The notes under the pieces were generated by a model, which was not told the DNA's origin, ran no database searches, and saw nothing but the letters and a program-made list of their open reading frames with translations. From Tidjanibacter sp. (GTDB taxonomy: Bacteria; Bacteroidota; Bacteroidia; Bacteroidales; Rikenellaceae): a DNA stretch of 53,858 nt. The stretch lies in contig JAFVSJ010000028.1 of the NCBI GenBank assembly GCA_017503805.1, forward strand, positions 1 through 53,858. The letters are read 5' to 3'. The translations under genes and the position numbers were made by a program. Numbering within the stretch: the first letter of the stretch is position 1; each line of letters starts with the position of its first letter. Positions 14,329 to 39,518 of the stretch are shown piece by piece.

Positions 14329-14357
14329 TAAACCTGATAAAGTAAGACAAGAAAGTT

Positions 14358-14552: not shown

Positions 14553-14561
14553 TTAGACGCT

Positions 14562-14816: not shown

Positions 14817-14818
14817 TT

Positions 14819-15184: not shown

Positions 15185-15205
15185 TCTTAAATACCGATAA
15201 GCAGT

Positions 15206-16086: not shown

Positions 16087-16089
16087 GTT

Positions 16090-23999: not shown

Positions 24000-24992
24000 A
24001 TGGCAGTTTTAGCATTCCAGAAACCCGAGAAGGTGATTATGCTCGAGTCCACCTCCACTTTCGGAAAGTTTGAGTTCCGTCCCTTGGAGCCCGGATTCGG
24101 TATGACCATTGGTAATGCTTTGCGCAGGGTATTGCTCAACGCTCTCGAGGGCTACGCAATCACCACCGTAAAGATTGCCGGGGTCGATCACGAGTTTGCC
24201 GCCATCCCCGGAGTTATGGAAGGAATGATAAATATTGTCCTGAATCTCAAGAAGGTACGTTTTGTACGCACCGTTGAGACCGCCGAGGCTGAGAAGGTTA
24301 CTATCAACGTAGCCGGTCAGACCGAGCTTACGGCAGGCTATATTTCTAATTTCCTGACGAACTTCAAAGTGTTGAATCCCGAGTTGGTTATCTGCCACCT
24401 CACCCCCGACACGAAGCTCACCATCGACCTTACTATCGGTAAAGGCCGCGGTTATGTTCCCGCCGAGGAGAACCGCCCCGCCGATGCTGAGTTTGGTCTG
24501 CTTCCTATCGATTCGATTCACACCCCTATCATCAATGTTATGTACTCGGTAGAGCCCTACCGTGTTGAGCAGAAAACCGACTACGATAAACTCAACATCG
24601 AGGTTACTACCGACGGTTCGATCCATCCTAAGGAGGCTCTCAAAGAGGCCGCTAAGATTCTTATCCACCACCTGATGCTCTTCTCCGATGAGAAGATTAC
24701 CATCAATATGGAGGAGTCTTCGCCCGCAGAGGAGTTCGATGAGAACGTATTGCATATGCGTCAGTTGCTCAAGACCAAGCTCTCGGAGCAGGATCTTTCG
24801 GTTCGCGCTCTGAACTGTCTGAAGGCAGCCGAGGTAGACACCATCGGTGACCTCGTACGCTACAATCGCAACGATCTGCTCAAGTTCCGCAACTTCGGTA
24901 AGAAGTCGCTGACCGAGCTCGATGACCTCTTGGCATCCCTGAATCTCCACTTCGGTATGGACGTTACTCCCTACAAGTTGGACAAGGAATAA
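24000..24992 (+). CDS. rpoA: RNA polymerase subunit alpha
   Basis: Scaffold and activator contact subunit of RNA polymerase, 330 aa. The N-terminal dimerisation domain has [20 protein letters not shown] near residue 35. The C-terminal helix-hairpin-helix domain has [20 protein letters not shown] and [20 protein letters not shown]. Normal length and position between rpsD and rplQ. Confidence 0.99.
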
Positions 24993-25019: not shown

Positions 25020-25577
25020 ATGAGACACAATAAAAAAGTAAATCACCTTGGCCGTCAGGCTTCGCACCGCAAAGCCCTGATGTCGAATATGGCTTCGAGC
25101 CTTATTCTCCACAAGCGCATCGAGACCACCGTGGCTAAGGCAAAGGCTCTCAAGAAATTCGTTGAGCCCCTCATCACCAAATCCAAAGAGGATACCACCC
25201 ACCAGCGCCGCGTGGTATTCAGCTACCTGAAGGACAAATATGCAACTGCAGAGCTCTTCCGCACTGTAGCTCCCAAGATTGCAGACCGTCCCGGTGGTTA
25301 CACCCGTATTCTTCACACCGGTTTCCGTGTAGGTGACGCAGCAGAGATGTGTATCATCGAGCTCGTAGACTTCAACGAGACCTATGTAGAGGGTGTAGCT
25401 CCCAAAGCTGCTGCAGCTCCTAAGACTCGTCGTAGCCGCTCGAAAAAGGCTGCTGAGGATGCCGAGGTTGTAGCCGAGGAGAAACCCGCAACCAAGAAGC
25501 CCGTAGCTCCTAAAGCTACTGCCAAGACTTCGGGTGCGAAGGTTAAAGCCGTTAAAACCGGTGCCAAAAAAGCATAA
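25020..25577 (+). CDS. rplQ: 50S ribosomal protein bL17
   Basis: Large-subunit protein near the exit tunnel, 185 aa. Residues 1-125 are the conserved domain ([20 protein letters not shown], later [20 protein letters not shown]). About 55 further residues form an Ala/Lys/Pro-rich tail, an extension seen in many Bacteroidota. Last gene of the ribosomal cluster, followed by a terminator. Confidence 0.98.
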
Positions 25578-25636: not shown

Positions 25637-25764
25637 AAAAAGCGTGCCTTGCGGGTAAATTTTGCGCCACCCTGCGGATAGTGTCCTCCTCATTTACTTT
25701 TAGTAAACTGCGGGGCCACTACCTTGCGTGGCACAAAATTTCCTCCGCAAAACACGCTTTTTTT
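25637..25764. repeat. Dispersed palindromic repeat, copy A
   Basis: About 128 bp, an imperfect palindrome. The outer arms AAAAAGCGTG...TTGCGG...AAATTTTG (25637-25670) and their inverse (25728-25762) enclose an inner stem and a central TTTACTTTTAGTAAA (25693-25707). The right part is nearly identical to copy B, 124 bp away. Confidence 0.85.
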
Positions 25765-25789
25765 GCTTTCAGTTGTTGCGAGTACTTGC

Positions 25790-25887
25790 ACTACCCTGCG
25801 GATAGTGTCCTCCTCATTTACTTTTAGTAAACTGCGGGGCCATTACCTTGCGTGGCACAAAATTTCCTCCGCAAAACACGCTTTTTC
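25790..25887. repeat. Dispersed palindromic repeat, copy B (left arm diverged)
   Basis: It shares about 95 bp with copy A with one difference seen (CACTA versus CATTA), has the central TTTACTTTTAGTAAA at 25817-25831 and the right arm ending CACGCTTTTT. The outer left arm is not recognisable. It continues with CTTTCA, the conserved extension. Confidence 0.8.
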
Positions 25888-25960
25888 CTTTCATCCAAAG
25901 CGTTGTGGTAATCTCCGCGTTGCATATCGATAACTCCGCTCCTCATTTACTTTTAGTAAA
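25888..25960. repeat. Repeat copy C, left half only
   Basis: CTCCTCATTTACTTTTAGTAAA is kept, then similarity stops right after the core: other copies continue CTGCGG, this one continues TTATAGGG. The region further left is diverged, so the half-repeat call rests on about 22 bp. It marks the left boundary of the mobile element. Confidence 0.6.
25946..25960. other. Proposed attL core
   Basis: TTTACTTTTAGTAAA, a 5-5-5 palindrome matching the centre of the repeat family and the attR core except at two central bases (TT versus GC). GATTTGCC at 25989-25996 appears inverted as GGCAAATC at 39366-39373 near attR, as expected for recombinase arm or core sites. Confidence 0.62.
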
Positions 25961-26052
25961 TTATAGGGTATTTTCACCCATTTTCTAAGATTTGCCAATG
26001 ATATGCAAAACATTGTGTTTTAGCGTATTTGGCAAATTTTCTTTTCTTGTGA

Positions 26053-26084
26053 TTTGCAGAATTTGCCGATAATATCTACTTTTG
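26053..26084 (+). promoter_or_regulatory. Integrase promoter
   Basis: TTTG (26053-26056), a 20-bp spacer, then TACTTTTG (26077-26084), 66 bp before the integrase ATG. Confidence 0.75.
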
Positions 26085-26117
26085 TATGCAAATAGTATGT
26101 GCAAGGATTTGCATACA
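26083..26117. promoter_or_regulatory. 11-bp inverted repeat after the integrase -7 box
   Basis: TGTATGCAAAT (26083-26093) and ATTTGCATACA (26107-26117) are exact inverse copies with a 13-nt spacer, placed over the expected transcription start. Half of it recurs near the other end of the element (39277-39297, 20 of 21 bases equal to 26080-26100). Candidate operator or arm-type recombinase site. Confidence 0.6.
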
Positions 26118-26149
26118 CAGAAGTAATTAACCTATAAAAACGGCAGATT

Positions 26150-27382
26150 ATGTTCAAGTATTCAAAGGACGGCATTTCGGTACTCTCGGTGCTGGATGCC
26201 CGTCGAGCCAAGAAGAGCGGATTGTTTCCTGTTAAGATACAGGTCATCTACAACCGCAAGCAGAAATACTACTCTACGGGGCAGGAGCTTTCCAAGGAGG
26301 ATTGGGCGAACCTTGCCGAGAGCAAGAGTCGCCGATTATCGGAGATTCGTTCAAGTGTAGAAAACAGTTTCTCCATTATCAAGAGCCAAGTAGAATCCCT
26401 TGCCGAGCGAGGAGAGTTTGGTTTTGACCTGCTCAGCATTCGTTTGGGACGCTGTGCGACTATTACTGTCAATGCAGCCATCAGAGCCAAGATTACCGAT
26501 GCCGAGCGTAATGAGCAGTATAGCACTCGCAATGGCTACCACTCTATGCTGTTGGGTATTGAGGCTTTTGCAGGAAAGGATATCCCATTCTCTACCATCA
26601 CCATAGATTGGCTCAATAGATTGGAACGCTTTTGGAGTAATGACGGTAAGAGCAAATCCACTATCAATGTATATTTCAAGTATCTTAAAGCGATACTCAA
26701 CCAAGCCCGTATGGATGGAGTAATCAAGGAGGTTAATTTCCCATTTGGCAGAGGTCGTTTCGAGATGCCCTCGGCAGAGGGTCGAAAGTTAGCTCTTACA
26801 TTGGAGCAGATAAAGCAACTCATAACCTACACCGATGGCAACGAGGAGACAGAGATGTATCGCGATATGTGGTTCTTCTCTTATCTGTGTAATGGTATCA
26901 ACTTTCGGGATATGCTCTACCTTACCTATAATAATATAGAGGGTGATGAGATATGTTTCGTCAGAGCCAAAACCAAGAATACCTCAAAGCAGATACGCAC
27001 CATAAGAGCTGTCTTAACTCCTGAAATGCGAAATATCATCGAGCGTTGGGGTAATGCTGATGATGGCAACCCCGATACATTGTTGTTCAAGTTTGCCACA
27101 AGTAAGGAATCTGCATACGAGATTAAACAACTCGTCTGCAAGGTTACTCAACGCTGTAATATCATCTTAGCCCGAATCTCTAAGGCTTTGGGATTGCCTC
27201 GTGTAACCACATACGCAGCACGCCATAGCTTTGCAACCGTCTTGAAGCGTAGCGGAACTAATATCTCCTATATCTCGGAGAGTTTGGGACACTCCAATCT
27301 GATGGTTACAGAGAACTATCTCGCCAGCTTCGAGCAGGACGAGCGAAAGAAGAATGCACAACTACTAACCAATTTTGATTAA
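26150..27382 (+). CDS. Tyrosine recombinase (element integrase)
   Basis: Site-specific integrase, 410 aa. It has an N-terminal arm-binding region (about 1-110), a SAM-like core-binding domain (about 115-205) and a catalytic domain (about 215-400). Visible catalytic residues are Arg358 and His359 in YAARHSFAT, His381 in LGHSNL and the nucleophile Tyr390 in TENYLASF. The first catalytic Arg is absent: the usual G-x-R position reads G249-I-N251, as in other Bacteroides-type integrases. The HxxR His is Tyr355. Located at the left end of the element next to the proposed attL, with its own promoter. Confidence 0.93.
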   Translation: MFKYSKDGISVLSVLDARRAKKSGLFPVKIQVIYNRKQKYYSTGQELSKEDWANLAESKSRRLSEIRSSVENSFSIIKSQVESLAERGEFGFDLLSIRLGRCATITVNAAIRAKITDAERNEQYSTRNGYHSMLLGIEAFAGKDIPFSTITIDWLNRLERFWSNDGKSKSTINVYFKYLKAILNQARMDGVIKEVNFPFGRGRFEMPSAEGRKLALTLEQIKQLITYTDGNEETEMYRDMWFFSYLCNGINFRDMLYLTYNNIEGDEICFVRAKTKNTSKQIRTIRAVLTPEMRNIIERWGNADDGNPDTLLFKFATSKESAYEIKQLVCKVTQRCNIILARISKALGLPRVTTYAARHSFATVLKRSGTNISYISESLGHSNLMVTENYLASFEQDERKKNAQLLTNFD

Positions 27383-27387
27383 AGCGT

Positions 27388-27789
27388 ATGCCTAACAGGA
27401 AAACAGCCAAGATAGAAATCCGCAAATTGAAGTGTTTCGGCATTATTGCGAGAGAAATAGCCGAGGAGTACCCCGAATATGAGAACTACCTCATTGACGA
27501 GGGTGTGCTGCATATCAAGGAGTATGTGCCACCTACAATAAATGATATTGACAAGGTGTTGGATAAGTTAAAATTCAACTATGCCACCCGAAAGTATAAA
27601 TATGAGACCTATCGAGATAAGGAACTCATCGACCAGAAATTATTGGCAAAGATGGCAGGCGTAACCCGTCAGACCGTAGCCCGATGGGAGCAGATAGGCT
27701 TTATCTCCCGTAGCGATGTAGGCTTGTCAAGAGACAAGTATTTCCAAATAAAAGAGGTCATTTCTCAACTCGAAAAGTTAAAAGAGTAA
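27388..27789 (+). CDS. Helix-turn-helix protein of unknown role
   Basis: 133 aa, starting 5 bp after the integrase stop and therefore probably co-transcribed. The C-terminal half has a MerR-like helix-turn-helix, LLAKMAGVTRQTVARWEQIG (about residues 86-105), followed by a wing-like and helical tail. The N-terminal part (residues 1-60) is charged and not recognised. It could be a regulator or a recombination directionality factor. A large hairpin lies immediately downstream. Confidence 0.75.
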   Translation: MPNRKTAKIEIRKLKCFGIIAREIAEEYPEYENYLIDEGVLHIKEYVPPTINDIDKVLDKLKFNYATRKYKYETYRDKELIDQKLLAKMAGVTRQTVARWEQIGFISRSDVGLSRDKYFQIKEVISQLEKLKE

Positions 27790-27815
27790 AAAATCGCACT
27801 TTTTGAAAATGACTT

Positions 27816-27930
27816 GACAGATGTAGGACAAATGATGCCATTGCGTCACTTGTCCTACATCTGTCTTATATACCTACCACCCCAAACCTATGCAGTGTCA
27901 TCATCTGTCGTAGTTGTGGCACAATCTGTC
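27816..27930. promoter_or_regulatory. 50-nt near-perfect hairpin plus phased ATCTGTC repeats
   Basis: GACAGATGTAGGACAA (27816-27831) pairs perfectly with 27850-27865. After one mismatch, TGATGC (27833-27838) pairs with GCGTCA (27843-27848) around a 4-nt loop, giving a 22-bp stem in all. The outer-arm motif ATCTGTC recurs at 27859, 27903 and 27924 (44 and 21 bp apart), each followed by nTA. Possible operator/iteron array or replication origin for the element. Confidence 0.6.
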
Positions 27931-28050
27931 ATAGGCGGGTTAAGTTATTGACAATTCGATATTTAGCCTCCTTTATTCTTCCTTTGCACCATCAATCGGT
28001 TGAGAAGGCTATGACGATAGCCAAGTATTAACTTAAAAAGGACGAATAAA

Positions 28051-28407
28051 ATGAACCAAATTATTGTAACCACGCCCGAAGAGTTAAGGGCTATTGTAAG
28101 CGAAACCGTATCGCAAACATTGGCAGGTCTTAACCATACTCAAAAAGATCTGCCCGACAATCTCACTCCCGATGCCGCAGTCGAGGCATTGGAGCAGCAC
28201 GGATTCTTAATCTCCAAAGCACGCCTGTATAAACTTACGGCAAAGGGTGAAGTTCCATTCCGCAAGTATGGCAACAAACTTCTCTTTTCGCGTAAGGAAC
28301 TTCTTTCGTGGGCTGATAACCTCGCCCGTAGAGTAAACGATAAGAGCGATGCGGCATTGACTATTGCCAGGAGTGCCAACCGTAAATTGCGAGGCTATGG
28401 AAAATAA
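28051..28407 (+). CDS. Helix-turn-helix (excisionase-family) protein
   Basis: 118 aa. Residues about 45-90 form a winged-helix DNA-binding domain of the excisionase/MerR type: LTPDAAVEALEQHGFLISKA, then LYKLTAKGEVPFRKYGNKLL, then FSRKELLSWAD. Such proteins precede replication and mobilisation genes in Bacteroidales mobilizable elements. Its stop overlaps the start of the next gene (ATGGAAAATAA), indicating coupling. An excisionase role is inferred. Confidence 0.8.
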   Translation: MNQIIVTTPEELRAIVSETVSQTLAGLNHTQKDLPDNLTPDAAVEALEQHGFLISKARLYKLTAKGEVPFRKYGNKLLFSRKELLSWADNLARRVNDKSDAALTIARSANRKLRGYGK

Positions 28408-29464
28408 CAAATCATTTGTACAGAAGCCACCGATGGCAGATGATGAGTTTGCAACTATCTGGAGAAGTGTTCATCTGAAAGTTACTGACACCTATGATAC
28501 GCCACCCGAAATACTTTGGGTGAATGGCTCTACCATTGGCACATTGGGTAATTTCAGTGCCTCGACAGGCAAGGCAAAGAGCAAAAAGACCTTTAATATC
28601 TCGGCTATCGTGGCAGCAGCACTAAGAAATAGTGAGGTGTTGCAATACTCGGCATATCTGCCACAGGAGAAACGCAAGATTCTCTATGTTGATACTGAGC
28701 AAAGCTTCTACCATTGCCATAAGGTGCTCAAACGCATAATGCGGTTGGCAGGGTGTGACATTGAACAAAACAGCAAGGATTTTCTATTCATTGTCTTGCG
28801 TGAGCATACTCCCGAGAGGCGTAGAGAGATTATCGGCGAAACCTTGCGAAGAGTAAAGGGTATCGGGCTTGTGATTATTGACGGCATCAGGGATTTGATG
28901 TATGATATAAACTCCCCAAGCGAATCGGCAGAGATTATCAACCTGTTGATGCGTTGGTCGAGCGAGTATAATCTACATATTCATACGGTGCTGCACCTGA
29001 ACAAAGGCGATGACAATACCCGAGGGCATATCGGAACAGAACTCAACAATAAGGCAGAAACGGTGCTGCAAGTAACTAAAAGCACGCAAGATGCCAATAT
29101 CAGCGAGGTCAAGGCTATGCACATTCGTGATAGGGATTTCTCCCCGTTTGCTTTCCGCATCAATGATGATGCTCTGCCCGAATTGGTCAGGGATTACACC
29201 TTTGACCAGCCACGCAAAGACCGCTCTTTCCCTCTAAAGGAGTTAAGCGAGCAGGAACACCGTCAAGCGTTGGAGAATGGTTTCGGCAACAAAGTGATAC
29301 AGGGTTTCCCCAATGTCATTGCAGCACTTAAAACGGGCTACGCAAGTATCGGCTATGAGCGTGGACGCAATACACTCGTTGATTTAAGAACATTCCTTGT
29401 AAACAAGCGAATGATTATCCCCGAGGGCAAAGGGTGGCGATACAATCCCGACTTCGTATTCTGA
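28397..29464 (+). CDS. RecA/RepA-like AAA ATPase
   Basis: 355 aa. The ATG at 28397 overlaps the preceding stop and is preferred to an ATG at 28364 that lies inside the upstream gene. A Walker A-like loop ASTGKAKSKKT is near residue 59 and a Walker B strand GLVIIDGIRDLMYD near residue 160; the order fits the RepA/DnaB-like RecA fold used by mobile elements as a replication helicase. The C-terminal 80 residues look like a winged-helix region. It works presumably with the primase downstream. Confidence 0.82.
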   Translation: MENNKSFVQKPPMADDEFATIWRSVHLKVTDTYDTPPEILWVNGSTIGTLGNFSASTGKAKSKKTFNISAIVAAALRNSEVLQYSAYLPQEKRKILYVDTEQSFYHCHKVLKRIMRLAGCDIEQNSKDFLFIVLREHTPERRREIIGETLRRVKGIGLVIIDGIRDLMYDINSPSESAEIINLLMRWSSEYNLHIHTVLHLNKGDDNTRGHIGTELNNKAETVLQVTKSTQDANISEVKAMHIRDRDFSPFAFRINDDALPELVRDYTFDQPRKDRSFPLKELSEQEHRQALENGFGNKVIQGFPNVIAALKTGYASIGYERGRNTLVDLRTFLVNKRMIIPEGKGWRYNPDFVF

Positions 29465-29465
29465 G

Positions 29466-29516
29466 ATAGGTTTAGTTTAGTTCGGGTGTATATGATTCGT
29501 ACTGAATAAACCTAAA
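29466..29516. repeat. Element-internal palindrome, copy 1
   Basis: TAGGTTTAGTTTAGT at the left and GAATAAACCTA at the right, directly after the ATPase stop. Related to the copies at 37078 and 39046 but with a different centre. Could be a terminator or protein site. Confidence 0.5.
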
Positions 29517-29531
29517 TAGTGAAACTCAAAG

Positions 29532-29565
29532 CCGATTGAGTGACTGCACAACAGCACTCAATCGG
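29532..29565. promoter_or_regulatory. Hairpin upstream of the primase gene
   Basis: CCGATTGAGTG (29532-29542) pairs exactly with CACTCAATCGG (29555-29565); inner CTG/CAG may extend the stem. No U-tract follows. Between the ATPase and primase genes, so a replication or attenuation role is possible. Confidence 0.5.
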
Positions 29566-29605
29566 TATATCAACCAATCAATTAACTTATAAAAACAGAA
29601 ACAAT

Positions 29606-30571
29606 ATGAATATCAACGAAATAAAGAAAATCAAGTTGGCAGACTATCTGCAAAGTTTGGGTTATACACCCGTTAAGCAACAAGGCAGGAGCCTATGGTA
29701 TAAATCACCGCTGAGGAACGAAACCGATGCTTCGTTCAAGGTAAACACCGAGTTAAACCAATGGTACGACTTCGGTATCGGCAAGGGGGGCAACATCATC
29801 GCATTGGCAGCGGAACTCTATCACAGTGAAAATGTAGCATACCTGTTGGAACGTATAGCGGAACGAACACCCTACATTCGCCCTGCAACATTCTCTTTTG
29901 GCAAGCAGAAAACTCACAACAGCAGTTTTCAAGGCGTACAGGTTGGCGAGTTATCTTCTCCTGCCCTTATCGACTATCTGCGAGAACGAGGAATAAACAT
30001 CGAACTCGCCAAAAGAGAATGTAAGGAGTTGAGATACGAGTATGAGGGTAAAACCTACTTCGTTGTCGGTTTTCCGAATATCGCAGATGGATATGAACTC
30101 CGCAACCGCTACTTCAAAGGTTGCCTTGCTCCAAAGGATATTACTCATATCCGACAGCAGGGCGAGCAACGGCTGGTATGCTATCTCTTCGAGGGCTTTA
30201 TGGATTATCTCTCGTTCCTCACAATACGAATGAACAACAACCCCGAAGAGCCACGCACAGGCGAGCAGGATTATATGGTGCTGAACTCCGTTACCAACCT
30301 CTCGAAAGCCGAACAATTGCTACGCCCATACTCCCGAATCGGTTGCTTCCTCGACAATGACCAGGCAGGACAAAGAGCCTATGAAAATCTGAAAAGGATG
30401 TTCGGAAACAGGCTTCAAGATATGTCGCATCACTACAAGGAGCACAAGGATTTGAACGACTATCTATGCCATAGAAACCAAGCAAAACATGCAGAGAAAA
30501 AATCACAAGTCCAATCCGTAAGGCGGATGCCACAACCGCAGCCGAAGAAGAAACGAGGCTTCAGGTTATAG
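29606..30571 (+). CDS. Toprim-domain primase of the element
   Basis: 321 aa. The start MNINEIKKIKLADYL at 29606 is chosen because homologous element primases begin here and the upstream region holds a hairpin. The N-terminal zinc-finger-like region lacks its Cys but keeps SPLRNETDASFKV and WYDFGIGKGGNIIALA. The Toprim domain has the Glu motif LFEGFMDYLSFL (about residue 200) and the DxD-type LDNDQAGQRA (about 254). A basic tail ends it. It would prime strand synthesis during transfer or replication. Confidence 0.85.
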   Translation: MNINEIKKIKLADYLQSLGYTPVKQQGRSLWYKSPLRNETDASFKVNTELNQWYDFGIGKGGNIIALAAELYHSENVAYLLERIAERTPYIRPATFSFGKQKTHNSSFQGVQVGELSSPALIDYLRERGINIELAKRECKELRYEYEGKTYFVVGFPNIADGYELRNRYFKGCLAPKDITHIRQQGEQRLVCYLFEGFMDYLSFLTIRMNNNPEEPRTGEQDYMVLNSVTNLSKAEQLLRPYSRIGCFLDNDQAGQRAYENLKRMFGNRLQDMSHHYKEHKDLNDYLCHRNQAKHAEKKSQVQSVRRMPQPQPKKKRGFRL

Positions 30572-30602
30572 CCCACTATAACTACACAGGTGTAGTTGTG
30601 GG
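30572..30602. other. Candidate origin of transfer
   Basis: CCCAC and AACTACAC (30572-30587, 3-nt bulge between) pair with GTGTAGTT and GTGGG (30590-30602) around a 2-nt loop, in the 137-bp gap just before the relaxase gene, where MobV-type oriT regions usually lie. No nick site was identified. It could instead be a primase terminator, though no U-tract follows. Confidence 0.45.
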
Positions 30603-30708
30603 GCAGAGCGACCTCTCTGCACTCCGCTTATGGGCTTCGCCCCTAAGAACCCCCAAGCAGAAATAAGGAAACAACCGACCTAATTGTAACCAATAAAATT
30701 AAAGAACA

Positions 30709-32112
30709 ATGGCAATAAAAAGCAGCATACATATCAAGCCTTGCAACATATCATCAAGCGAGGCTCACAACCTCAGAACTCCCGAATATATGCGAAACAT
30801 CGGAGAGGCGAAAATCTACCTTGTTCCCCAACTCGTAACCGACAATGAGCATTGGATAAATCCACGCTTTGGCGATTACGACTTGCAGACGCATTACGAC
30901 AATATCAAGCAGATGGTAAAGGCTAAGACAGGGCGAGCAATGCAGGAGAAAGAACGGGAACGCAAAACCAAGAGTGGTAAAATAATCAAGGTAGCAGGAT
31001 GCTCACCCATTCGTGAGGGTGTGCTCCTCATCAAGCCCAACACCACATTAGAGGATGTTCGTAGGTTTGGCGAGGAGTGCCAACAGCGTTGGGGTATTAC
31101 ACCGCTGCAAATCTTCTTGCATAAGGATGAGGGACATTGGCTCGGTGGAGAGCCACCCCCAGACGATAAGGAGAGTTTTCAAATCGGTGGTCGTTGGTTC
31201 AAACCCAATTATCACGCTCATATCGTTTTCGATTGGATGGACCACGAAACGGGAAAAAGTCGCAAACTCAACGATGATGATATGATACAGATGCAGACCT
31301 TGGCATCCGAGATTCTATCAATGGAGCGAGGGGAGTCCAAATCCGAGACAGGCAAGGAGCATTTGGAGCGTAACGACTTCATCATCGAGAAGCAGCGAGC
31401 CGAACTTGAACGCATAGAGGCTGAGCGACAGCATAAGGAACACCAGATAGATCTTGCCGAGCAAGAACTAAAACAGGTGAAATCGGAGATACGCACCGAC
31501 AAACTCAAAAGCGTAGCCACCGATGCAGCCACAGCCCTTGCAAGCGGTGTCAGTTCTCTTTTCGGTAGCGGTAAGATGAAATCGTTAGAACGCAAGAACG
31601 AGGATTTACGGGACGAGATAGCTATCCGAGATGAAACAATCGAGCAACTGCAAACCAATATCAAGCAAATGGAGGTAGAACATAGCAGGGCAATGATGAA
31701 TAAGGATAACGAGCATCGCAAGGCTCTTGAAGCAAAGGAGGCCGAACATAAGGAGGAGACCAACATCCTTAATTCGATAATCAAGACTGCTCATCGTTGG
31801 TATCCCGATTTTGCTAATCTTCTACGATTGGAACGCCTTGCCAAGCAAATCGGGCTTTCAGCAATGGAATTTGCTGAGCTGATTAAGGGTAAGGTTCTGA
31901 ACTTTACAGGGCGACTGTTCTCCTCAGAACATAACAGATGGTTTGCTACGGATAATACCCCTTTACAGATTCTGCGAGATAACGATAAGCGACTTACCCT
32001 AACCGCAAATCGAATACCTATCAGCCAATGGTTCTGCGAACAATACGACAAACTCCGACAATCAATCCGACAGCCTATTCAGCCAAAGAAAAACAGAGGA
32101 ATGAAACTCTAA
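30709..32112 (+). CDS. mob: MobV-type relaxase (Pre/Mob family)
   Basis: 467 aa. Nicks the element at oriT and pilots the strand to a recipient. The N-terminal MAIKSSIHIKPC segment and the histidine motifs LHKDEGHW (about residue 143) and NYHAHIVFDWMD (about 167) fit the MobV catalytic core. Residues about 210-355 form a long Glu/Lys/Arg-rich coiled coil. The C-terminal region is variable. No coupling protein or type IV secretion genes are present, so transfer needs a helper element. Confidence 0.88.
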   Translation: MAIKSSIHIKPCNISSSEAHNLRTPEYMRNIGEAKIYLVPQLVTDNEHWINPRFGDYDLQTHYDNIKQMVKAKTGRAMQEKERERKTKSGKIIKVAGCSPIREGVLLIKPNTTLEDVRRFGEECQQRWGITPLQIFLHKDEGHWLGGEPPPDDKESFQIGGRWFKPNYHAHIVFDWMDHETGKSRKLNDDDMIQMQTLASEILSMERGESKSETGKEHLERNDFIIEKQRAELERIEAERQHKEHQIDLAEQELKQVKSEIRTDKLKSVATDAATALASGVSSLFGSGKMKSLERKNEDLRDEIAIRDETIEQLQTNIKQMEVEHSRAMMNKDNEHRKALEAKEAEHKEETNILNSIIKTAHRWYPDFANLLRLERLAKQIGLSAMEFAELIKGKVLNFTGRLFSSEHNRWFATDNTPLQILRDNDKRLTLTANRIPISQWFCEQYDKLRQSIRQPIQPKKNRGMKL

Positions 32113-32117
32113 ACAAT

Positions 32118-32147
32118 AATGGCGACCGCAATCAAGTGGTCGCCATT
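32118..32147. terminator. Stem-loop between convergent genes
   Basis: AATGGCGACC (32118-32127) and GGTCGCCATT (32138-32147) pair perfectly over 10 bp between the ends of the relaxase and TetR genes; likely a bidirectional terminator. Confidence 0.7.
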
Positions 32148-32150
32148 GCT

Positions 32151-32747
32151 CTATTTAACCTCTAATAAGTTTCGCATTTGTGCTATGATGTTTTGTTTCC
32201 AATCGCACAACATTTCTCTAAAATGCTCCTCATCATTCATAAATACCTTTTGAGCCATATTTAATGTCAAGAATGGAAATGACAGCAGACTATAGAAATT
32301 ATAAAATACAAATTGCAATGATACTTTATTTAATTTACCTTCATCCATTTCCTCCTGAACTGACGCCAGTGCCTTTCCCATTGTCTCTAAGACATTGAGT
32401 TCCTTTGCTGAATTAATAAGTAGGTCAGCATCACGATTCAGCTCTCGTAGTAAAAACATTGGCAGATGCGGATTCTCCCAAAACAGTTCATAATAAGCAT
32501 CAATGACAACCCCTATTCGCTCTGCAACAGATTTTTCTTTATGCATTAATGCATCAAAAACTTTAGGGATGATGGATGATACAATACCTCCGATAACGGC
32601 TTGAAACATCTTGTCTTTGGTGCGAAAATAGTAATGCAGGGCAGGACGATTGATACCTACTCTTGTTGCAATCTCACTCATACTCGTCTCCGCATATCCC
32701 TTCTCAATAAAGAGTGCACGAGCTGCATTGATAATCTTATTTTCCAT
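32151..32747 (-). CDS. TetR-family transcriptional regulator
   Basis: 198 aa. Residues 1-50 are a TetR N-terminal helix-turn-helix (IINAARALFIEKGYAETSMS, then EIATRVGINRPALHYYFRTK). The helical C-terminal ligand-binding domain is of unknown specificity. It is the second gene of an operon, overlapping the activase gene by 11 bp. A TGACAC-CT-GTGTCA palindrome at the operon promoter is a natural operator, implying autoregulation; the effector is unknown. Confidence 0.9.
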   Translation of the reverse strand: MENKIINAARALFIEKGYAETSMSEIATRVGINRPALHYYFRTKDKMFQAVIGGIVSSIIPKVFDALMHKEKSVAERIGVVIDAYYELFWENPHLPMFLLRELNRDADLLINSAKELNVLETMGKALASVQEEMDEGKLNKVSLQFVFYNFYSLLSFPFLTLNMAQKVFMNDEEHFREMLCDWKQNIIAQMRNLLEVK

Positions 32748-35700
32748 CAGTATTCTCTTTCAATTTGTCAATAAATAGTAACAAACGATTTTTAATATTT
32801 ACATCGCTTACACCGCTATCAAAGTCCAAAGATAGTAAATTTATTGCAGGATATAGGTCTTTCAACCTTTTTTCTACTCCTTTGGATACGATGTGGTTAG
32901 CGATGCAGCCAAATGGTTGCAGACTAATAACGCTATTTATTCCCTTTTGTGCATACGATATAATCTCGGCGGGTAGTAACCAGCCCTCACCGAATTGGGC
33001 ATTAAGGGTAATCACTCGCTCCGCAAGTTTCGCTTCGTGGAAAATGTCGTTAAAAGGTGTAAAGTGGCGAAATGTAGAACATAGTTTGTTTGTTTTCTCA
33101 ATTTCGTGCTTTACAATGTGATATAATCCTCGGTAAGCAATATCGGTTAAACCTCGTTTAAGTAAATGTGCATTCGTTTTTGCTTTACGATTAACGAAAG
33201 CTTGCGTAAAGAAATCTATTAGGACAGGTGGTTCTACCTCTATGTGATGTTCAGCAAGCCAATCAACTATATTTCTGTTGGCAAAAGAGTTGAATTTCAA
33301 ATATATCTCACCAACAATACCAACTTTTGGAAGCGATATATCTCGGCAAATAGAGTTAAAATCTTCGGCAGCAAATGGTAAATGTTTAAGCAGTTCGCTG
33401 CTTTTACCTTCCTCTATCAACTCCGCTCCCATTTCCAAATAGAGTTTCCGCAAATCAGCAGCCATACCTTTGTTAATCTCTCGCACAAGAGCTGCGTGGT
33501 AAAATTTGTTGATACAATCGCTATATAGTACGGCACGAAGAGCAATTGGCAAAACCTTTAACCAATTTATCTTGAATGCGGGCTGCTTATTCTCTATACC
33601 AGACCCCAAAGCAAGAGATATTACGGGAACATCATTAAATCCAGCATCAACCAACGCCTTTTTTAGCATTGGCAGATAGTTTGAAGCTCGGCACTGTCCG
33701 CCCGTTTGAGTGATGCCAACTGCGGTATGCGACGGGTCATATTTACCACTCTTAAAAGCCTTTATCACATCTCCGATAATAAGTGTCGCAGGATAACAGA
33801 CCTCATTATTAGCATATTTTAATCCGTATTCACTCGACTCATCATTACTCATCGGCAGCGATTCTACTTCATATCCCGCTACACGCAAAACTGATGGGAT
33901 AAGAGGCGAAATGAATGATGTGAAATAAGGCACAACTATTTTGCGGTTCAAATGTTTTTGCTCATAATTTGGAGTGGTCGCAAAATCTTGCTTATCTCTA
34001 TTCTCTCTCTTCTTATTCGCTATTTTAAGACTCTCTATAAGTGAGCGTACTCTTAATTTCATTGACCCTATATTGTTTATATCGTCCAATTTGAGCAGTG
34101 TAAAAGCCTTGTTGTGGCGTAGCAGTAAATCACGAACTTCATCTACCATAAATGCGTCGGGACCACAACCGAATGATGTCATTTGCACGAATTGAACATT
34201 ATCACTCTGCGTAGTACACCATTTGGCAGCACGCATAATACGATTGGGATATGACCACTGCGATAAAAAGTGGGTATCGTTAATATCAATATTTTCACCT
34301 CTTACAACATCCTCGGTCAGCACATCAACGCCCATCTCTGCAAGCATATTGGAAACCTTATGTTGAATTAGCGGGTCGGCGTGATAAGGTCGCCCTGCAA
34401 GCAGTATGGTTAAGTTGTCCATTTGTTGTGATACTCGTAGCGATTCTTTGTTTCGTTCTGCAATATCAAGCATATAATTCGTTTGCGCCTCTTCGGCTTT
34501 TAGAAAAGCGTCCAATGCTATGCCTTTGGATACCCCTAATGAGTGGAGATACTCCTCGCATTGCTTGTATAGCAAGTTGCCATCGTTAAAACTGATGACA
34601 GGTGAATCAATAGGGATTCTTGTTTGTTGCACGCTCTTGACCACAGCGGAATAACCCGTTACAATGGGGCAGTTATAGCTATTTTGGTCGCCATTACCGC
34701 ATTGCTCCTTAACGACAAATGGCATAAATATTCTATCAACATCTCGTTTTTGAAGGTCGCAGATATGGCTGTGTACTAACTTTGCAGGGAAACAGATATT
34801 ATCAGACATAACCATTCGAGCACTATGCTCGTATCGTGTATAGTTGGAGGGTTCGGATAAATATACCGAAATACCACACTCGGTAAACAGAGTATGCCAA
34901 AATGGGTACTCCTCAAACATATTCAGCACACGAGGTATGCCTATTGTCAGTTTAGGGTTTTCAATAACTGCACTCCGAGAGAACAAAAGGTCGGTCTTTA
35001 TTTCGTACATATTACGCCCTGCGACTCTCGATGTTCCGCTGTTGTTGAAATGTTTTTCACATCTGTTTCCCGAATAATATTTGTGTCCGTTGCCAAAATT
35101 GTATTGTTGTATCTCACAATTATTCTCACATCCTCTACAATTCAGTGTGCGTGTAGAGTATGTAACCGTAGCCAACATTTCATCGAGAGAGATTGTGTTA
35201 CCGCTGTTCTCCATAGCGTGGAGAGCGCATCCGAATGCACCCATCAGTTCAGGATATTCACATCTTGTAACTTCAAGATTTGTAATGATTTCCAATGCTC
35301 GTACGATTGCATCATTACGCATAGCGCCACCTTGAACAACAATATGGTTGCCTAATTGTGAAGCATCCTTTAATTTCAATACTTTATATAGGCAGTTTTT
35401 TACAACAGAATATGCCAATCCTGCTGATATATCGCTTACCGATGCTCCCTCTCGTAGGACTTGTTTAACCTTTGAGTTCATAAAGACGGTGCAACGAGTA
35501 CCGAGGTCGGCAGGGTGAGCGGATTCACAAGCTTTTTGAGCAAACTCAGAAGCAGAGTATCCTAAACTTTGTGCAAAAGCCTCTATAAATGAGCCACAAC
35601 CTGAAGAACAAGCTTCATTGATTTCGATTCGGTCTATAATGCCATTATTGACAAATATAGCTTTCATATCTTGACCTCCGATGTCAAGAATAAAACTCAC

Positions 35701-36951
35701 CTTGTCATCAAGATTGTGCGCAGCTTTGTAGTGTGCAATAGTTTCTATGATTCCTGAGTGTAAGTTAAACGCAGCCTTAATCAAATCCTCACCATATCCC
35801 GTAGAACAACTACCTGCAAATTCCAAAACAGCACCTTGCTTTTTGCACTCTTCCGAGAGTTTAGACAAGCCAAGTACTATGGTTTCAATAGGTCTGCCAC
35901 CATTACCTTTATAAAATTTATATAACAACTCTCCTTGCTCATTCAACACAACAATCTTTGTGGTAGTTGAGCCCGAATCAATACCTAAGTATGCTCTCTG
36001 CACGCCTTTTGATAGTTTTGCGTGAGCTATATTGTTACGAGAAATTCGATTGTGCCACTCATTGTACGAGGTCGTATTTTCAAATATTGGTTGTAGAGAT
36101 GAGGTGGAGCGTTCTATGTTACTTGAAGATTTCTTTAAGCGAACGATTAAATCCGACAGACGCTCAATGTGCTCATTCTCAATTTCAACCAGAGCAGTAC
36201 CAAGAGCAGGGATAAGCTCTCCATATTGGGGCAACATAATTTGAGAATCATCCAATGATAGATAACTCTTGAATGCCTCTCGAAGTGCTGGGATAAATGT
36301 TAGCGGACCGCCACAAAACAATATAGGCGGTTGTATATCATATCCGTGCGCTAATGTTGTGATGGTCTGCACCGCCACAGCGTGAAAAATTGACGCAGCA
36401 ATGTTCTCTCGGCTAATATTTTTAGCTATTAGATTTTGAATGTCCGTCTTACAGAAAACTCCGCATCGTGATGCTATGGGATAGATTTTAGATGAACGCA
36501 GTGCCAATTCATTCAATTCATCGGGAGTAACACCTAAGATAATAGCCATTTGGTCGATAAATGCTCCTGTTCCTCCTGCACAATTTCCGTTCATTCGCAA
36601 ATCATCAGTCTTACCATCCTTAAATAATACTATTTTGGCATCCTCTCCTCCGATGTCAATCATAGTATTAGTTGTGGGATAATAGCATTGTACCGTTTTT
36701 GATGCTGCAACCACCTCTTGCACAAATGGCAAATTGCACCGCTCAGCGAGTCCCATTCCTACCGAGCCTGTTACTCGCAACGAAACCTCTTCATCACCAA
36801 ACTTACATAACAACTCTTCAAGGAATGATGTGATAACCTCATTCGCCTGTGCGTTATGTCTTTTGTATGATGAAAAACACACATTCCCGTTTGTTCCAAT
36901 AGCAACCAACTTGGCGGTTGTTGAACCAATATCAAGACCTATTTTTACCAT
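32737..36951 (-). CDS. Giant acyl-CoA dehydratase activase (2-hydroxyglutaryl-CoA dehydratase type)
   Basis: 1404 aa, ASKHA-fold ATPase family that activates radical 2-hydroxyacyl-CoA dehydratases with ATP-driven low-potential electrons. Two BcrAD/BadFG ATPase domains start at MVKIGLDIGSTTAK (residue 1) and YLGIDSGSTTTKIVV (about 320). Each has cluster cysteines: GNCAGGTGAF and SRCGVFCKTD in the first, EACSSGCGSF and TRCTVFMNSK in the second. A DUF2229-like and dehydratase-like half follows (LTIGIPRVLNMFEEYPF, about 660). The start at 36951 is favoured because the alternative ATG at 36996 lies inside the promoter. The physiological substrate is unknown; no separate dehydratase subunits are nearby. 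Confidence 0.85.
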   Translation of the reverse strand: MVKIGLDIGSTTAKLVAIGTNGNVCFSSYKRHNAQANEVITSFLEELLCKFGDEEVSLRVTGSVGMGLAERCNLPFVQEVVAASKTVQCYYPTTNTMIDIGGEDAKIVLFKDGKTDDLRMNGNCAGGTGAFIDQMAIILGVTPDELNELALRSSKIYPIASRCGVFCKTDIQNLIAKNISRENIAASIFHAVAVQTITTLAHGYDIQPPILFCGGPLTFIPALREAFKSYLSLDDSQIMLPQYGELIPALGTALVEIENEHIERLSDLIVRLKKSSSNIERSTSSLQPIFENTTSYNEWHNRISRNNIAHAKLSKGVQRAYLGIDSGSTTTKIVVLNEQGELLYKFYKGNGGRPIETIVLGLSKLSEECKKQGAVLEFAGSCSTGYGEDLIKAAFNLHSGIIETIAHYKAAHNLDDKVSFILDIGGQDMKAIFVNNGIIDRIEINEACSSGCGSFIEAFAQSLGYSASEFAQKACESAHPADLGTRCTVFMNSKVKQVLREGASVSDISAGLAYSVVKNCLYKVLKLKDASQLGNHIVVQGGAMRNDAIVRALEIITNLEVTRCEYPELMGAFGCALHAMENSGNTISLDEMLATVTYSTRTLNCRGCENNCEIQQYNFGNGHKYYSGNRCEKHFNNSGTSRVAGRNMYEIKTDLLFSRSAVIENPKLTIGIPRVLNMFEEYPFWHTLFTECGISVYLSEPSNYTRYEHSARMVMSDNICFPAKLVHSHICDLQKRDVDRIFMPFVVKEQCGNGDQNSYNCPIVTGYSAVVKSVQQTRIPIDSPVISFNDGNLLYKQCEEYLHSLGVSKGIALDAFLKAEEAQTNYMLDIAERNKESLRVSQQMDNLTILLAGRPYHADPLIQHKVSNMLAEMGVDVLTEDVVRGENIDINDTHFLSQWSYPNRIMRAAKWCTTQSDNVQFVQMTSFGCGPDAFMVDEVRDLLLRHNKAFTLLKLDDINNIGSMKLRVRSLIESLKIANKKRENRDKQDFATTPNYEQKHLNRKIVVPYFTSFISPLIPSVLRVAGYEVESLPMSNDESSEYGLKYANNEVCYPATLIIGDVIKAFKSGKYDPSHTAVGITQTGGQCRASNYLPMLKKALVDAGFNDVPVISLALGSGIENKQPAFKINWLKVLPIALRAVLYSDCINKFYHAALVREINKGMAADLRKLYLEMGAELIEEGKSSELLKHLPFAAEDFNSICRDISLPKVGIVGEIYLKFNSFANRNIVDWLAEHHIEVEPPVLIDFFTQAFVNRKAKTNAHLLKRGLTDIAYRGLYHIVKHEIEKTNKLCSTFRHFTPFNDIFHEAKLAERVITLNAQFGEGWLLPAEIISYAQKGINSVISLQPFGCIANHIVSKGVEKRLKDLYPAINLLSLDFDSGVSDVNIKNRLLLFIDKLKENTDGK

Positions 36952-36975
36952 AAAACAACGACTTACATTAGTGTT

Positions 36976-36989
36976 TGACACCTGTGTCA
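36976..36989. promoter_or_regulatory. Probable TetR operator
   Basis: TGACAC, CT, GTGTCA: a perfect palindrome 5 bp downstream of the -7 box of the activase operon promoter, covering the expected transcription start. Confidence 0.68.
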
Positions 36990-36993
36990 GTTG

Positions 36994-37025
36994 CAAAATT
37001 ATACGCTTTTTACGAAACGAACAAA
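36994..37025 (-). promoter_or_regulatory. Promoter of the activase-tetR operon
   Basis: On the minus strand: TTTG (37025-37022), a 20-bp spacer, then TAATTTTG (37001-36994). A good consensus match that places the activase start codon about 43 bp downstream. Confidence 0.75.
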
Positions 37026-37077
37026 TTTTATGGCAAAATTTACATTTTTTAACAAGGCGAGAACGCTGAATAATGTA

Positions 37078-37131
37078 ATAAGTTTAGTTTAGTCCATTGG
37101 CTATATACCCAAAACGGAATAAACCTATTTT
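37078..37131. repeat. Element-internal palindrome, copy 2
   Basis: 37 bases (37082-37118) are identical to copy 3 at 39049-39085. GTTTAGTCC (37087-37095) pairs with GGAATAAAC (37116-37124) with one mismatch; a T-run follows. Confidence 0.65.
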
Positions 37132-37273
37132 CGCCTGGGCAGCACTTTAAAAATCAAAAAACACACCCAACCTTGATTTTTGGGAGTAAAAATGGATGTA
37201 ATCTCGTAACTACCTTATTTACACCTTTATTAACGGAGAGGGGGCGTTTGACCTCAATATCGATGGAGATTCG

Positions 37274-37281
37274 TATATTTG
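37274..37281 (+). promoter_or_regulatory. Possible -7 box for the metallophosphoesterase gene
   Basis: TATATTTG, with TTTG at 37247-37250 (23-bp spacer, long). A second candidate TACTTTTG lies at 37345-37352, 22 bp before the gene. Which one is used cannot be told. Confidence 0.4.
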
Positions 37282-37374
37282 CAAATAATGAACTACTCTT
37301 GGCAATAAAGTCGTATTAAATGCATTTATACTAATATTTTTGATTACTTTTGTTACAATGAAGAATATTGACAT

Positions 37375-38394
37375 ATGAAAGCTACACAAATAATGCTATG
37401 TTTCTGCCTTGTAGGCGCTATTATGTTGGCATTGGTTCCACATATCCTTTGGTTTCTGGGATGGTGCATTGGCAAAATAGTAGATTTACATATACCATAC
37501 AGGCTCTTTGGGGGCTTAGCAATTATTCTGGTAGTGCTATTTTGGAGCCTTATGGCATATGGATATTTCGTTGGTCGATGGAAGGTTGAATCAATCGAAG
37601 TAGAGTATGCCCACAAGGATATACCGCAGGCGTTTAATGGCTTCAAGATTGTGCATATTTCAGATTTGCATTTATCGACATTTGATGATTCTCCAGAAAA
37701 ATTTAAGAAATTTATAGATGAAATCAACAGCCACTCTCCCGACTTGATATGTTTCACTGGAGATATGGTAACCATAGGAAGAAGCGAGGCAGAGCCTTAT
37801 GCAGACATTCTCAAAACAATGAATGCAAAATATGGGGTATTGTCTGTGTTGGGTAATCACGACTTTATGATATATGGTTTCGACCGCAACCTTGACAAAA
37901 ACAAAGCTGTTGAAGATTTAGTGGATTTCCAAAAAAATATTCTTGGCTGGACTCTACTCAGAAACGAAAACAGAGTCATAGAGGCTGAGGATGGCTCTAA
38001 GATTACATTCATAGGTGTTGACAACGCAAATTTTAGCCAACAAGGATTTCCTACGATTCATCAAGGCGACCTAAAGAGAGCGATGGACGGAACTGATGGA
38101 TTTAGGATTCTTCTCTCGCACGACCCAAGCCACTGGAAAGCCGAAGTTGTACCCGATACGGATATTCCGCTTACGCTCTCGGGGCATACACATAACGCCC
38201 AAATAAGGATATTCGGGTGGACTCCTGCAACATTCTCGTTCAAAGAGGTCGCTGGCAGATATGATTGTGGAGAACAGACGCTTTATATCAATGTCGGTCT
38301 TGGTTGTACTGCTCCATTCAGAATCGGTGTCAATCCTGAAGTGACTGTAATTACACTTAATTCTCAGGCGGGTATTTTAGCCGACTCTTTATAA
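37375..38394 (+). CDS. Membrane-anchored metallophosphoesterase
   Basis: 339 aa. Two hydrophobic segments (about residues 5-27 and 43-65) anchor a calcineurin-like phosphoesterase domain starting near residue 90. Metal-binding motifs are in order: HISDLHLS, CFTGDMVTIG, LGNHDF and LSGHTHNAQ. This resembles the YaeI/YkuE group that acts on lipid or nucleotide phosphates at the membrane; the substrate is not known. Probably cargo of the element, transcribed away from the activase operon. Confidence 0.88.
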   Translation: MKATQIMLCFCLVGAIMLALVPHILWFLGWCIGKIVDLHIPYRLFGGLAIILVVLFWSLMAYGYFVGRWKVESIEVEYAHKDIPQAFNGFKIVHISDLHLSTFDDSPEKFKKFIDEINSHSPDLICFTGDMVTIGRSEAEPYADILKTMNAKYGVLSVLGNHDFMIYGFDRNLDKNKAVEDLVDFQKNILGWTLLRNENRVIEAEDGSKITFIGVDNANFSQQGFPTIHQGDLKRAMDGTDGFRILLSHDPSHWKAEVVPDTDIPLTLSGHTHNAQIRIFGWTPATFSFKEVAGRYDCGEQTLYINVGLGCTAPFRIGVNPEVTVITLNSQAGILADSL

Positions 38395-38405
38395 AGTATC
38401 ACATT

Positions 38406-38780
38406 TTACACAATTACCATAAATCCCTTGTCAGCACCACCTGCGTAGATAAGTTGAGTAACCTTGATGGCAAAATTATTTCCGAAGTGGGACATCGAAA
38501 CACTCTGCCCATTCAGAAACTCACGGTCTAAATGATAACCATTGCCGAGATAACACGTCGACAAAGAGATGTCAATGTCAGGCAGATAGCCATTCTTTGC
38601 CGCCTTAACCGTCTGCTGCGCTTCTGTAACCGCAGCCTCCTCAGCCTTTATAGTTTTGCTATTTTCGTCTGCCAGAGCAAACATCTACTCTAAGGTCAGT
38701 ACATGAGAATTTTGTGCATAGCTGCCCTCAGCCCATAGCAATGCCTATAGCACCACTATGAACAACTGCACTTTGCTCAT
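38406..38780 (-). pseudogene. TolC-family outer-membrane efflux protein remnant
   Basis: From an ATG at 38778-38780 the frame reads a signal peptide (MSKVQLFIVVL, stop, ALLWAEGSYAQ), then LTLE, stop, MFALADENSKTIKAEEAAV and NGYLPDIDISLS up to QLIYAGGADKG, where homology ends. Two in-frame TAG codons (38745-38747 and 38685-38687) and loss of about three quarters of a normal 450-aa protein show a dead gene. Both stops are one base from CAG or GAG codons. It suggests the element once carried an efflux system. Confidence 0.78.
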
Positions 38781-39045
38781 ACAATTATTTATATTTATTA
38801 GTGATTTTGAAAGAGAATTACATTACTTTCAGTCCTCCCAATTCGTGCTGATATGGGATGTAGATATACGCTGCTGAAATATAGTAATGTAAGTTCGAGT
38901 TATTTTTCATATAAAGGAAGAACTTTATGCTCTTCAGCCGACAAAGGCACGAAAAATAACGCAAAGTTGTAAGGGTGTCATTTCGACATTTTTTTGAGTG
39001 GAATGTATTGTTGTTTATTTCAGATAATTAAGATATAGGTCAAAA

Positions 39046-39100
39046 TAGGTTTAGTTTAGTCCATTGGCTATATACCCAAAACGGACTAAACTTATTTTTG
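39046..39100. repeat. Element-internal palindrome, copy 3
   Basis: GTTTAGTCC (39054-39062) pairs perfectly with GGACTAAAC (39083-39091) and is followed by TTATTTTTG. Together with copy 2 it forms direct repeats bracketing the metallophosphoesterase gene and the TolC remnant. Confidence 0.65.
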
Positions 39101-39276
39101 CTTAGACAGCATAAAATATGCTGGCGAAAAAAGAAATCATTGCAACTTCTCTTTTCGTCAGCAATATTTTTATACCTTTGTGATGTCGGAAGTGAAAGAA
39201 AATATAAATAATCACCTACCACGATAGAATTTTTTGTAGTGGTATTTTTGCATTACTATTTTCCTTAAATCTTCGA

Positions 39277-39297
39277 TTTTGTATGCAAATTGTATGT
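39277..39297. repeat. Arm-like direct repeat near the right end
   Basis: TTTTGTATGCAAAT then TGTATGT, matching 26080-26100 beside the integrase at 20 of 21 bases. It lies 86 bp inside attR; the left copy is 120 bp inside attL. Possibly an integrase arm-type site. Confidence 0.5.
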
Positions 39298-39382
39298 TAT
39301 AAATTTGTGAGTTAATTGCGAAATGCACAAGTAATAAATTGATAATTAAATAGATATTTAAGGGTGGCAAATCAAGAGTTTA

Positions 39383-39397
39383 TTTACGCTTAGTAAA
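39383..39397. other. Proposed attR core
   Basis: TTTACGCTTAGTAAA. To its right the sequence continues as a host repeat right half (CTGCGGACTCGCCACC...). To its left there is no repeat left half but element sequence, including the inverted GGCAAATC motif 10 bp away. Confidence 0.65.
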
Positions 39398-39518
39398 CTG
39401 CGGACTCGCCACCTTGTTTATCGCAAAATTTCCTCTGCAAAACACGTTTTTTTGCTTTCAGTTGGAGCGGGTAACTTTTTCACCTCAAATAATCATCCTC
39501 CACTGAATCAGGGGAGGT
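39383..39518. repeat. Repeat copy D, right half plus extension
   Basis: Core, inner-stem right arm GGACTCGCC, outer right arm ending CAAAACACGTTTTTT, then CTTTCAGTTGGAGCGG and the second module ATCATCCTCC...GGGGAGG shared with copy E. Its left half is missing, cut at the attR core. Confidence 0.75.

Follow-up and report, generated by a model that had tools for sequence, protein, structure and literature searches.

Elements of the IntDOT/NBU group (CTnDOT, NBU1, NBU2 and Tn4555) have an arm-binding tyrosine integrase, with a primase and a putative relaxase encoded near it. According to the relevant passages of PMC5704250, integrative and mobilizable elements (IMEs) usually occupy tRNA genes or gene ends, and Tn4555, Tn5520 and the MTnPi elements are looser, Tn4555 preferring one 589-bp locus and Tn5520 AT-rich regions. 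A title cited in PMC8138268 gives the tRNA-Leu gene as the site of NBU1, and a section of PMC5991714 describes non-matching spacers, called 'coupling sequences', for CTnDOT, Tn916 and SXT. The DNA analyzed here, hereafter the window, is a 53,858-nt stretch from a Tidjanibacter sp. (contig C16 in a draft genome that is 59% complete), in which a 13.4-kb integrase element sits between rplQ and moxR. By its domains and gene content the element is an IntDOT/NBU-type Bacteroidales integrative element. It very probably targets TTTAC and GTAAA half-sites, the tips of dispersed host hairpins being its best chromosomal attachment sites (attB) in Rikenellaceae hosts.

Element junctions and their host flanks

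The motif TTTACNNNNNGTAAA (TTTAC-N5-GTAAA, the core) occurs six times in the window, at 25693, 25817, 25946, 39383, 47397 and 53774, where 100 dinucleotide shuffles give an expectation of 0.05. The 1.25-Mb draft genome has 15 cores versus none for a reversed control pattern. Two of the cores in the window bound the element, TTTAC-TTTTA-GTAAA on the left (25946..25960) and TTTAC-GCTTA-GTAAA on the right (39383..39397; all features are on the plus strand unless stated otherwise). Comparison of junctions across relatives indicates that each core is half host and half element: TTTAC is the host side on the left and the element side on the right, and GTAAA is the element side on the left and the host side on the right. 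The comparison, which covered many junctions, puts the first base of the element proper at 25956, where GTAAATTATAGGG begins, and its last base at 39387, the end of TTTAC. The preliminary description had placed an element between two half-repeat cores that differ in two central bases, with one half-site per end and intact repeat copies elsewhere, and all of this was confirmed. Its claim that each core is flanked by half a host repeat can be refined. There is a half-repeat on each side, and the host right arm (39398..39457) is 89% identical to the copy at 53718; the host left arm adjoining the element (25885..25945) does not cleanly reproduce that of the intact repeats, matching the sampled copies at 69% at best, and the two flanks are not complementary. 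An origin of this left arm in a different repeat subfamily was considered and found not decisive (69% versus 66% for other copies).

An integrase scan of genomes gave 29 loci. Searches of 268 family genomes with the element ends matched the right end in 40 genomes, many via short matches only, and the left end (25956..26149) in 21. Removal of identical junctions left 33 distinct left junctions; on the right there were 17, and 18 with L084. Left matches starting beyond query base 12 were dropped (L068, L069, L070 and L077), and right matches were used only within 25 bases of the end. Four further right-end matches (G012:C7, G115:C17, G011:C45 and G221:C11) stand outside the set used. L098 and the short matches L107 and L109-L119 yielded no junction. 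L139, whose end is diverged, is counted within the 33 and stands outside the spacer tally. Repeat flank was scored as CTCA or GCAG beside TTTAC, and as CTGCG/CTCCG or TGAG after GTAAA, the right side by eye; longer stretches of the arms were assessed visually, with a comparison of duplex energies for a few.

At the left junctions the element side reads GTAAA in 32 of 33 (ATAAA in L139), with a variable host side. The left half-site is exactly TTTAC in 27 of the 33, against a window-based expectation of about 0.0013 per position; the remaining six are TTTTC, ATATC, ATATC, ACTAC, TTAAC and TTTCC. GTAAA is found at 16 of 18 right junctions, the others having GAAAA and GATAA. Repeat flank accompanies 24/33 left junctions (21 CTCA and 3 reversed GCAG) and 14/18 right junctions (12 forward, 2 reversed), so that the element is inserted in both orientations, with forward in excess. 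These counts bear out the earlier proposal that the integrase targets the repeat core and thereby has many sites per genome. Up to 62 cores per family genome were counted, versus 0-7 for the control pattern, with none in 49 of the 268 genomes and few in many.

In the mechanism that we propose, the integrase would bind inverted TTTAC and GTAAA half-sites, 5 bp apart, in both the circular attP and the chromosomal attB, and strand exchange would occur within the spacer. The best attB in Rikenellaceae hosts would be the tips of dispersed hairpin repeats of ~127 nt, often just behind genes, and repeat-rich genomes would consequently offer many sites, usable in either orientation, at which genes can stay unbroken. 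The junctions would have been made by the integrase that the window encodes. Sequence comparison shows common element ends, the half-sites and repeat flanks, and insertion in both orientations with several ends per genome.

It is possible, if rather doubtful, that the integrase is instead of low specificity, with a loose, AT-rich TTTAC-like core, and that repeats are hit merely as the best match and as non-essential DNA. Six carriers titled other than Rikenellaceae (Bacteroidaceae, Bacteroidales or Phocaeicola; L061, L066, L080, L084, L086 and L087) favor such a loose core: TTTAC is present at only 2/6 of their left half-sites, the others being ATATC, ATATC, ACTAC and TTTTC, and repeat flank at 1/6, while core counts are near or below control in five genomes (G347, G348, G350, G351 and G353), the genome of L084 alone exceeding it (G349; 5 versus 0). 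The bases at the junction point in the same direction, all 33 left half-sites ending in C and all 18 right ones beginning with G. However, at the 27 other left junctions, which come from the genome of the window and its family, TTTAC occurs in 25 and repeat flank in 23, although repeats are a tiny fraction of the genome, and the excess of forward over reversed orientation (21 to 3) suggests that bases beyond the core matter. The half-site and flank counts look like recognition of a short, tolerant core for which the repeats are the best sites. In part, the loose core is the proposed mechanism with a weaker preference.

Near-identical copies occupy different loci, which points to recent movement. 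The left end in the window agrees with that of G242 at 1397 of 1400 bases, with 11/60 in the host flank; the right end agrees with that of G241 at 658 of 660, with 27/60 in the flank. Three left ends are present in each of G221 and G011, and many carrier contigs end within the element, as expected from multi-copy DNA. A right-end contig (L243) has backbone parts 94-100% identical to the window, and L244 and L242 have the relaxase part alone, at 94% identity; in all three the cargo behind differs.

The locus is also seen without the element, in that the rpoA-rplQ end and moxR adjoin each other in three relatives (G020, G021 and G005), which rules out an assembly chimera at the window. Downstream of rplQ an intact palindrome is present in G005, with TTTACGAAAAGTAAA, and in G021, with a 4-base spacer; G020 has no repeat between rplQ and moxR. 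In a stretch of G018 (L180), the start of which matches the rplQ end, the core reads CTTAC...GTAAG, a paired change. By sequence, the three relatives have orthologous loci lacking the element.

Alternatively, the repeats could be sites of chromosomal recombination, and elements flanked by half-repeats the products of rearrangement or assembly. The window's arms are not complementary, arrays of partial repeats exist and the contigs are draft assemblies, all of which would suit this origin. We nevertheless consider it extremely unlikely: element ends are base-identical in 32/33 left junctions and right cores in 16/18 while the flanks differ, the flank genes adjoin in the three relatives, and L084 has the two element ends together on a single contig, with a repeat arm on either side.

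The L084 copy (9796-16360) is a 6.55-kb derivative with both element ends and only the first 70 integrase residues. The rest of the window backbone is unmatched in it; it carries other genes, one for an AAA_15 ATPase, and it may move with the help of a complete copy. In G011, the arms at two loci (L143 and L104) pair better than any others compared (-87.4 kcal/mol), and both carry the CTCA side; they look like two opposite-orientation insertions in related repeat copies.

The spacers at the two ends differ in the window (TTTTA left, GCTTA right) and in 8/8 inferred pairs (G016, G215, G236, G251, G266, G224, G217 and G253), two of them by length (5 versus 6). The arms of G016 pair at -51.0 kcal/mol, a value reached by 2 of 421 cross-genome pairs, and this is the only pair that is clearly one insertion. 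For the others, the arm pairing is reached by 20-44 (G251, G215, G224 and G266), 65 (G217), 86 (G236) and 215 (G253, not complementary) of the 421. In L084, where a single contig spans both ends, the two spacers read GCTCA, which counts against spacer heterology and rules out that N5 always differs between the ends. The mismatch in the window may come from two different repeats, its flanks not being complementary. At the left end, 30/32 junctions have A immediately ahead of GTAAA, a base that may for that reason belong to the element. The suggestion in the preliminary description that mismatched crossover sequence is tolerated is partly supported: the window and the eight inferred pairs speak for it, and against it stand L084, the lack of a palindrome in the window flanks and the fact that G016 alone of the pairs is clearly complementary; tolerance of a mismatched N5 is likely on these sequences, not proven. 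The N5 spacer would then be free to mismatch and would be carried along with the element.

Several observations weigh against the mechanism proposed here. Repeat flank is missing at 9/33 left and 4/18 right junctions, and two right junctions (L099 and L106) have a 6-base spacer. The window's two flanks form no single palindrome (-19.9 kcal/mol, with 228 of 421 cross-genome pairs equal or better), so that for the window itself it is not established that insertion was into one intact repeat. Nearly all data are metagenome-assembled contigs, many breaking inside the element, and most left-right pairings are inferred for that reason. No circular or tandem junction was found in assembled contigs: 24 exact N5 matches were all known left junctions, and four matches with other spacers (G302, G330, G052 and G054) lay outside the inspected set. 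Finally, the relaxase assignment is weak (PF03432 E 0.019, below cut-off).

For L061, the right element end was sought and not found. Among viral contigs four stretches matched, from all of which element genes were absent (tblastn); a second search gave 0 matches, and three further matched stretches were without any element gene.

The host hairpin repeat family

Three copies of the host repeat were folded and are ~127-nt hairpins with z scores of -6.9 to -8.2. Copy A (25637..25763, core 25693-25707) is intact, lies 60 bp behind rplQ and has a z score of -8.2, with -10.3 for its opposite strand. Copy B (25786..25886, core 25817-25831) was identified by repeat match, with its outer left arm unmatched. 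Two further intact copies are found at 47342..47467 (core 47397-47411), on the 3' side of the enolase gene, 169 bp off and in opposite orientation, and at 53718..53844 (core 53774-53788), 15 bp behind a gene. In a sample of 14 of the 32 repeat matches in the window's genome, with open reading frames (ORFs) called mechanically and some orientations taken from the match strand, 9 copies start no more than 60 bp past the stop codon of an ORF in the same orientation, and another is 1 bp away from a 5' end.

Forty repeat stretches were fetched, of which 36 gave copies (L213, L224, L234 and L235 did not). Covariation was assessed in 47 sampled intact copies with 32 distinct inner arms, aligned in a gapless register from the core, and the window's two junction half-cores were left out. 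Copies were picked by core pattern and flank score, so that the conservation of the repeat centre is partly a selection effect. Pairing at positions 8, 13, 14 and 16 is seen in 97-100% of copies and involves three or four types of pair, versus 16-84% in slid registers. It is found in 72-88% of copies at positions 7, 9, 10 and 11, in 56% and 31% at 12 and 15, and in less than 50% beyond 16; a few conserved bases beside the core are unpaired in this register. Across the stretches sampled (L196-L235, from G000 and G212-G219) the repeats are ~127 nt with a conserved tip and variable, covarying arms, and they sometimes form arrays of partial copies.

Integron integrases recognize folded attC sites. 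An analogous recognition here, of a repeat extruded as a cruciform or single-stranded hairpin and not of the duplex, would fit the position of the core at the tip of a stable hairpin, with z scores as given above, and the conserved unpaired bases alongside. It is very unlikely, since repeat flank is lacking at the 9 left and 4 right junctions noted above, and since the arm-binding and core domains of the integrase are those of duplex-recombining enzymes. A wider scheme, which we hold to be improbable, adds to folded-hairpin recognition a Rikenellaceae-wide network of attachment sites, in which N5 would be a tag of the previous docking site and recombination between cores would shuffle repeat arms; such shuffling is suggested by the mismatched arms around the window's element.

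Known origins for the repeat were also considered. Rfam gave 0 matches at gathering in the window and 0 at E up to 1 for six loci, which rules out a known RNA family. Repetitive extragenic palindromic (REP) sequences and bacterial interspersed mosaic elements have palindromes of 20-40 bp (in a passage of PMC3733652), unlike the host repeat. Of the 23 genomes of the genus, many of which are incomplete drafts, one (G007) matched PF01797, the model of the REP-associated RAYT (Y1) transposase, and this one has a single core; repeats driven by RAYT were ruled out on this basis. T-runs, as at an intrinsic terminator, are visible near repeats; in copies A and B a simple terminator scan gave no hit.

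Element genes and integrase relatives

The element backbone starts with the gene for a tyrosine integrase of 410 aa, followed by genes for two small DNA-binding proteins, an AAA ATPase, a primase-like protein and a putative relaxase, with cargo downstream. The integrase (26150..27382) has arm-binding, core-binding and tyrosine catalytic domains, with matches to the Pfam models Arm-DNA-bind_5 (PF17293), Phage_int_SAM_5 (PF13102) and Phage_integrase (PF00589) all above cut-off. The first catalytic arginine of tyrosine recombinases seems to have been replaced or to have shifted at residues 249-254 (GINFRD; position by eye); part of PMC8138268 describes the same for the CTnDOT integrase. Two copies of the motif TTTGTATGCAAAT, a candidate arm-type integrase site, lie in direct orientation about 100-125 bp inward of both element ends (26081..26093 and 39278..39290). 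A relaxed form is found upstream of 18/27 homologous integrases, a count on which the idea that nearly all of them have it was dropped.

The next genes encode a helix-turn-helix protein (27388..27789; HTH_3 above cut-off, MerR below), an excisionase-like protein (28051..28407; HTH_17 above cut-off, TIGR01764 below at 6.1e-4), a RepA-like AAA_25 ATPase (28364..29464; domain match) and a primase-like protein (29540..30571), whose CHC2 zinc ribbon and Toprim domains are above the Pfam cut-offs and whose dnaG match is below. The relaxase of the preliminary description is here a 467-aa candidate (30709..32112), with an HKDE...NYHAH motif seen by eye and the PF03432 match cited above; it is 94% identical in three relatives, and a search of PDB for relatives gave none meaningful. 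The element is probably mobilizable, and would excise as a circle and be mobilized by conjugation.

Cargo in the window comprises, by domain matches and family models, a TetR regulator (32151..32747, minus strand), a large acyl-CoA dehydratase activase of 1419 aa (32737..36996, minus strand), a metallophosphoesterase (37375..38394) and a fragment of an outer-membrane efflux protein (38406..38684, minus strand). A 68-bp direct repeat (90%; 37077-37144 and 39044-39111) brackets the last cargo genes and may be a mark of cargo capture or an origin-like site. From copy to copy (L242, L243, L244 and L084) the cargo differs; it includes an RND efflux system together with an AraC regulator, a PBP_like_2 ABC transporter accompanied by a histidine kinase, a UvrD-like helicase alongside DUF2971, and an AAA_15 ATPase.

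The left neighbors of the element are rpoA (24000..24992; RNA polymerase alpha, Pfam RNA_pol_A domains) and rplQ (25020..25577; ribosomal protein L17, Ribosomal_L17 2.1e-36), the last gene ahead of the repeats. The right neighbor encodes a MoxR-type AAA ATPase (39741..40739; protein domain match). There are no tRNA genes in the 53,858 nt, and this, with the junction sequences in relatives, rules out tRNA attachment for this integrase clade.

An integrase tree was calculated with no named reference integrase and with L045, L056, L057, L060, L077 and integrase fragments left out. The 8 full-length integrases of the element's clade form one group (support 100/100). The 34 more distant integrases (68% identity or less) were labelled by eye as lying at tRNA-like ends (17), at protein-gene ends (9) or as unassigned (8); the tRNA labels rest on sequence like the 3' half of a tRNA, and ARAGORN found a complete tRNA in just 2/42 loci (L054 and L085). 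Integrases at 68% identity (L068-L070) share one coding-like stretch as their location, and the core TTTAC-N5-GTAAA is absent from all 27 stretches upstream of homologous integrases that were examined. The preliminary description had named homologous integrases at tRNA genes as evidence to the contrary. By these by-eye labels such cases appear only at 53% identity or less, and the group at 68% lies in the coding-like stretch. Target specificity seems to have changed within the integrase family, with a different target in more distant members, and the claim for the window's element is not refuted thereby.

Comparison with known systems

Group IIC introns insert behind terminator hairpins. They resemble the window's element in landing behind genes at hairpins and differ in being retro-mobile RNA, with no site-specific DNA recombination. 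The insertion sequences ISPsy8, ISPa11, ISPpu9 and ISPpu10 likewise use dispersed extragenic palindromes, those of the REP type, as insertion sites, according to the relevant part of PMC1525189; these have transposases, whereas the window's element is a 13-kb element with a tyrosine integrase and is joined at the hairpin tip. The CTnPi and MTnPi elements of Prevotella intermedia are also from Bacteroidales, with att cores that are short and with several near-identical copies to a genome, the att of CTnPi4 being TTTTCNNNNAAAA, which is common to the CTnPg1 family. MTnPi1-3 differ in having two integrases, and a host repeat is not named as target in the passages on them (these points from sections of PMC4755523).

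Integration at a single tRNA gene or gene end is typical, though not universal, for the IntDOT/NBU group, in which the window's element was placed by domains and gene content only. The element departs from this, 24/33 left and 14/18 right junctions being at dispersed repeats, and its main target is the dispersed host hairpins. No tyrosine-integrase element with dispersed host palindromes as its main target was found among the top-ranked titles and abstract openings of the open-access literature. The junctions described here point to a tyrosine integrase lineage with a multi-copy family of host hairpins as its main target, whose distant relatives appear at single gene ends, and they bring to light a hairpin family behind genes that has covarying arms and no Rfam match. 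Repeat-rich genomes would provide the element with dozens of gene-sparing docking sites, which would explain why near-identical copies are found at differing loci, with differing cargo, across genera of gut Rikenellaceae.

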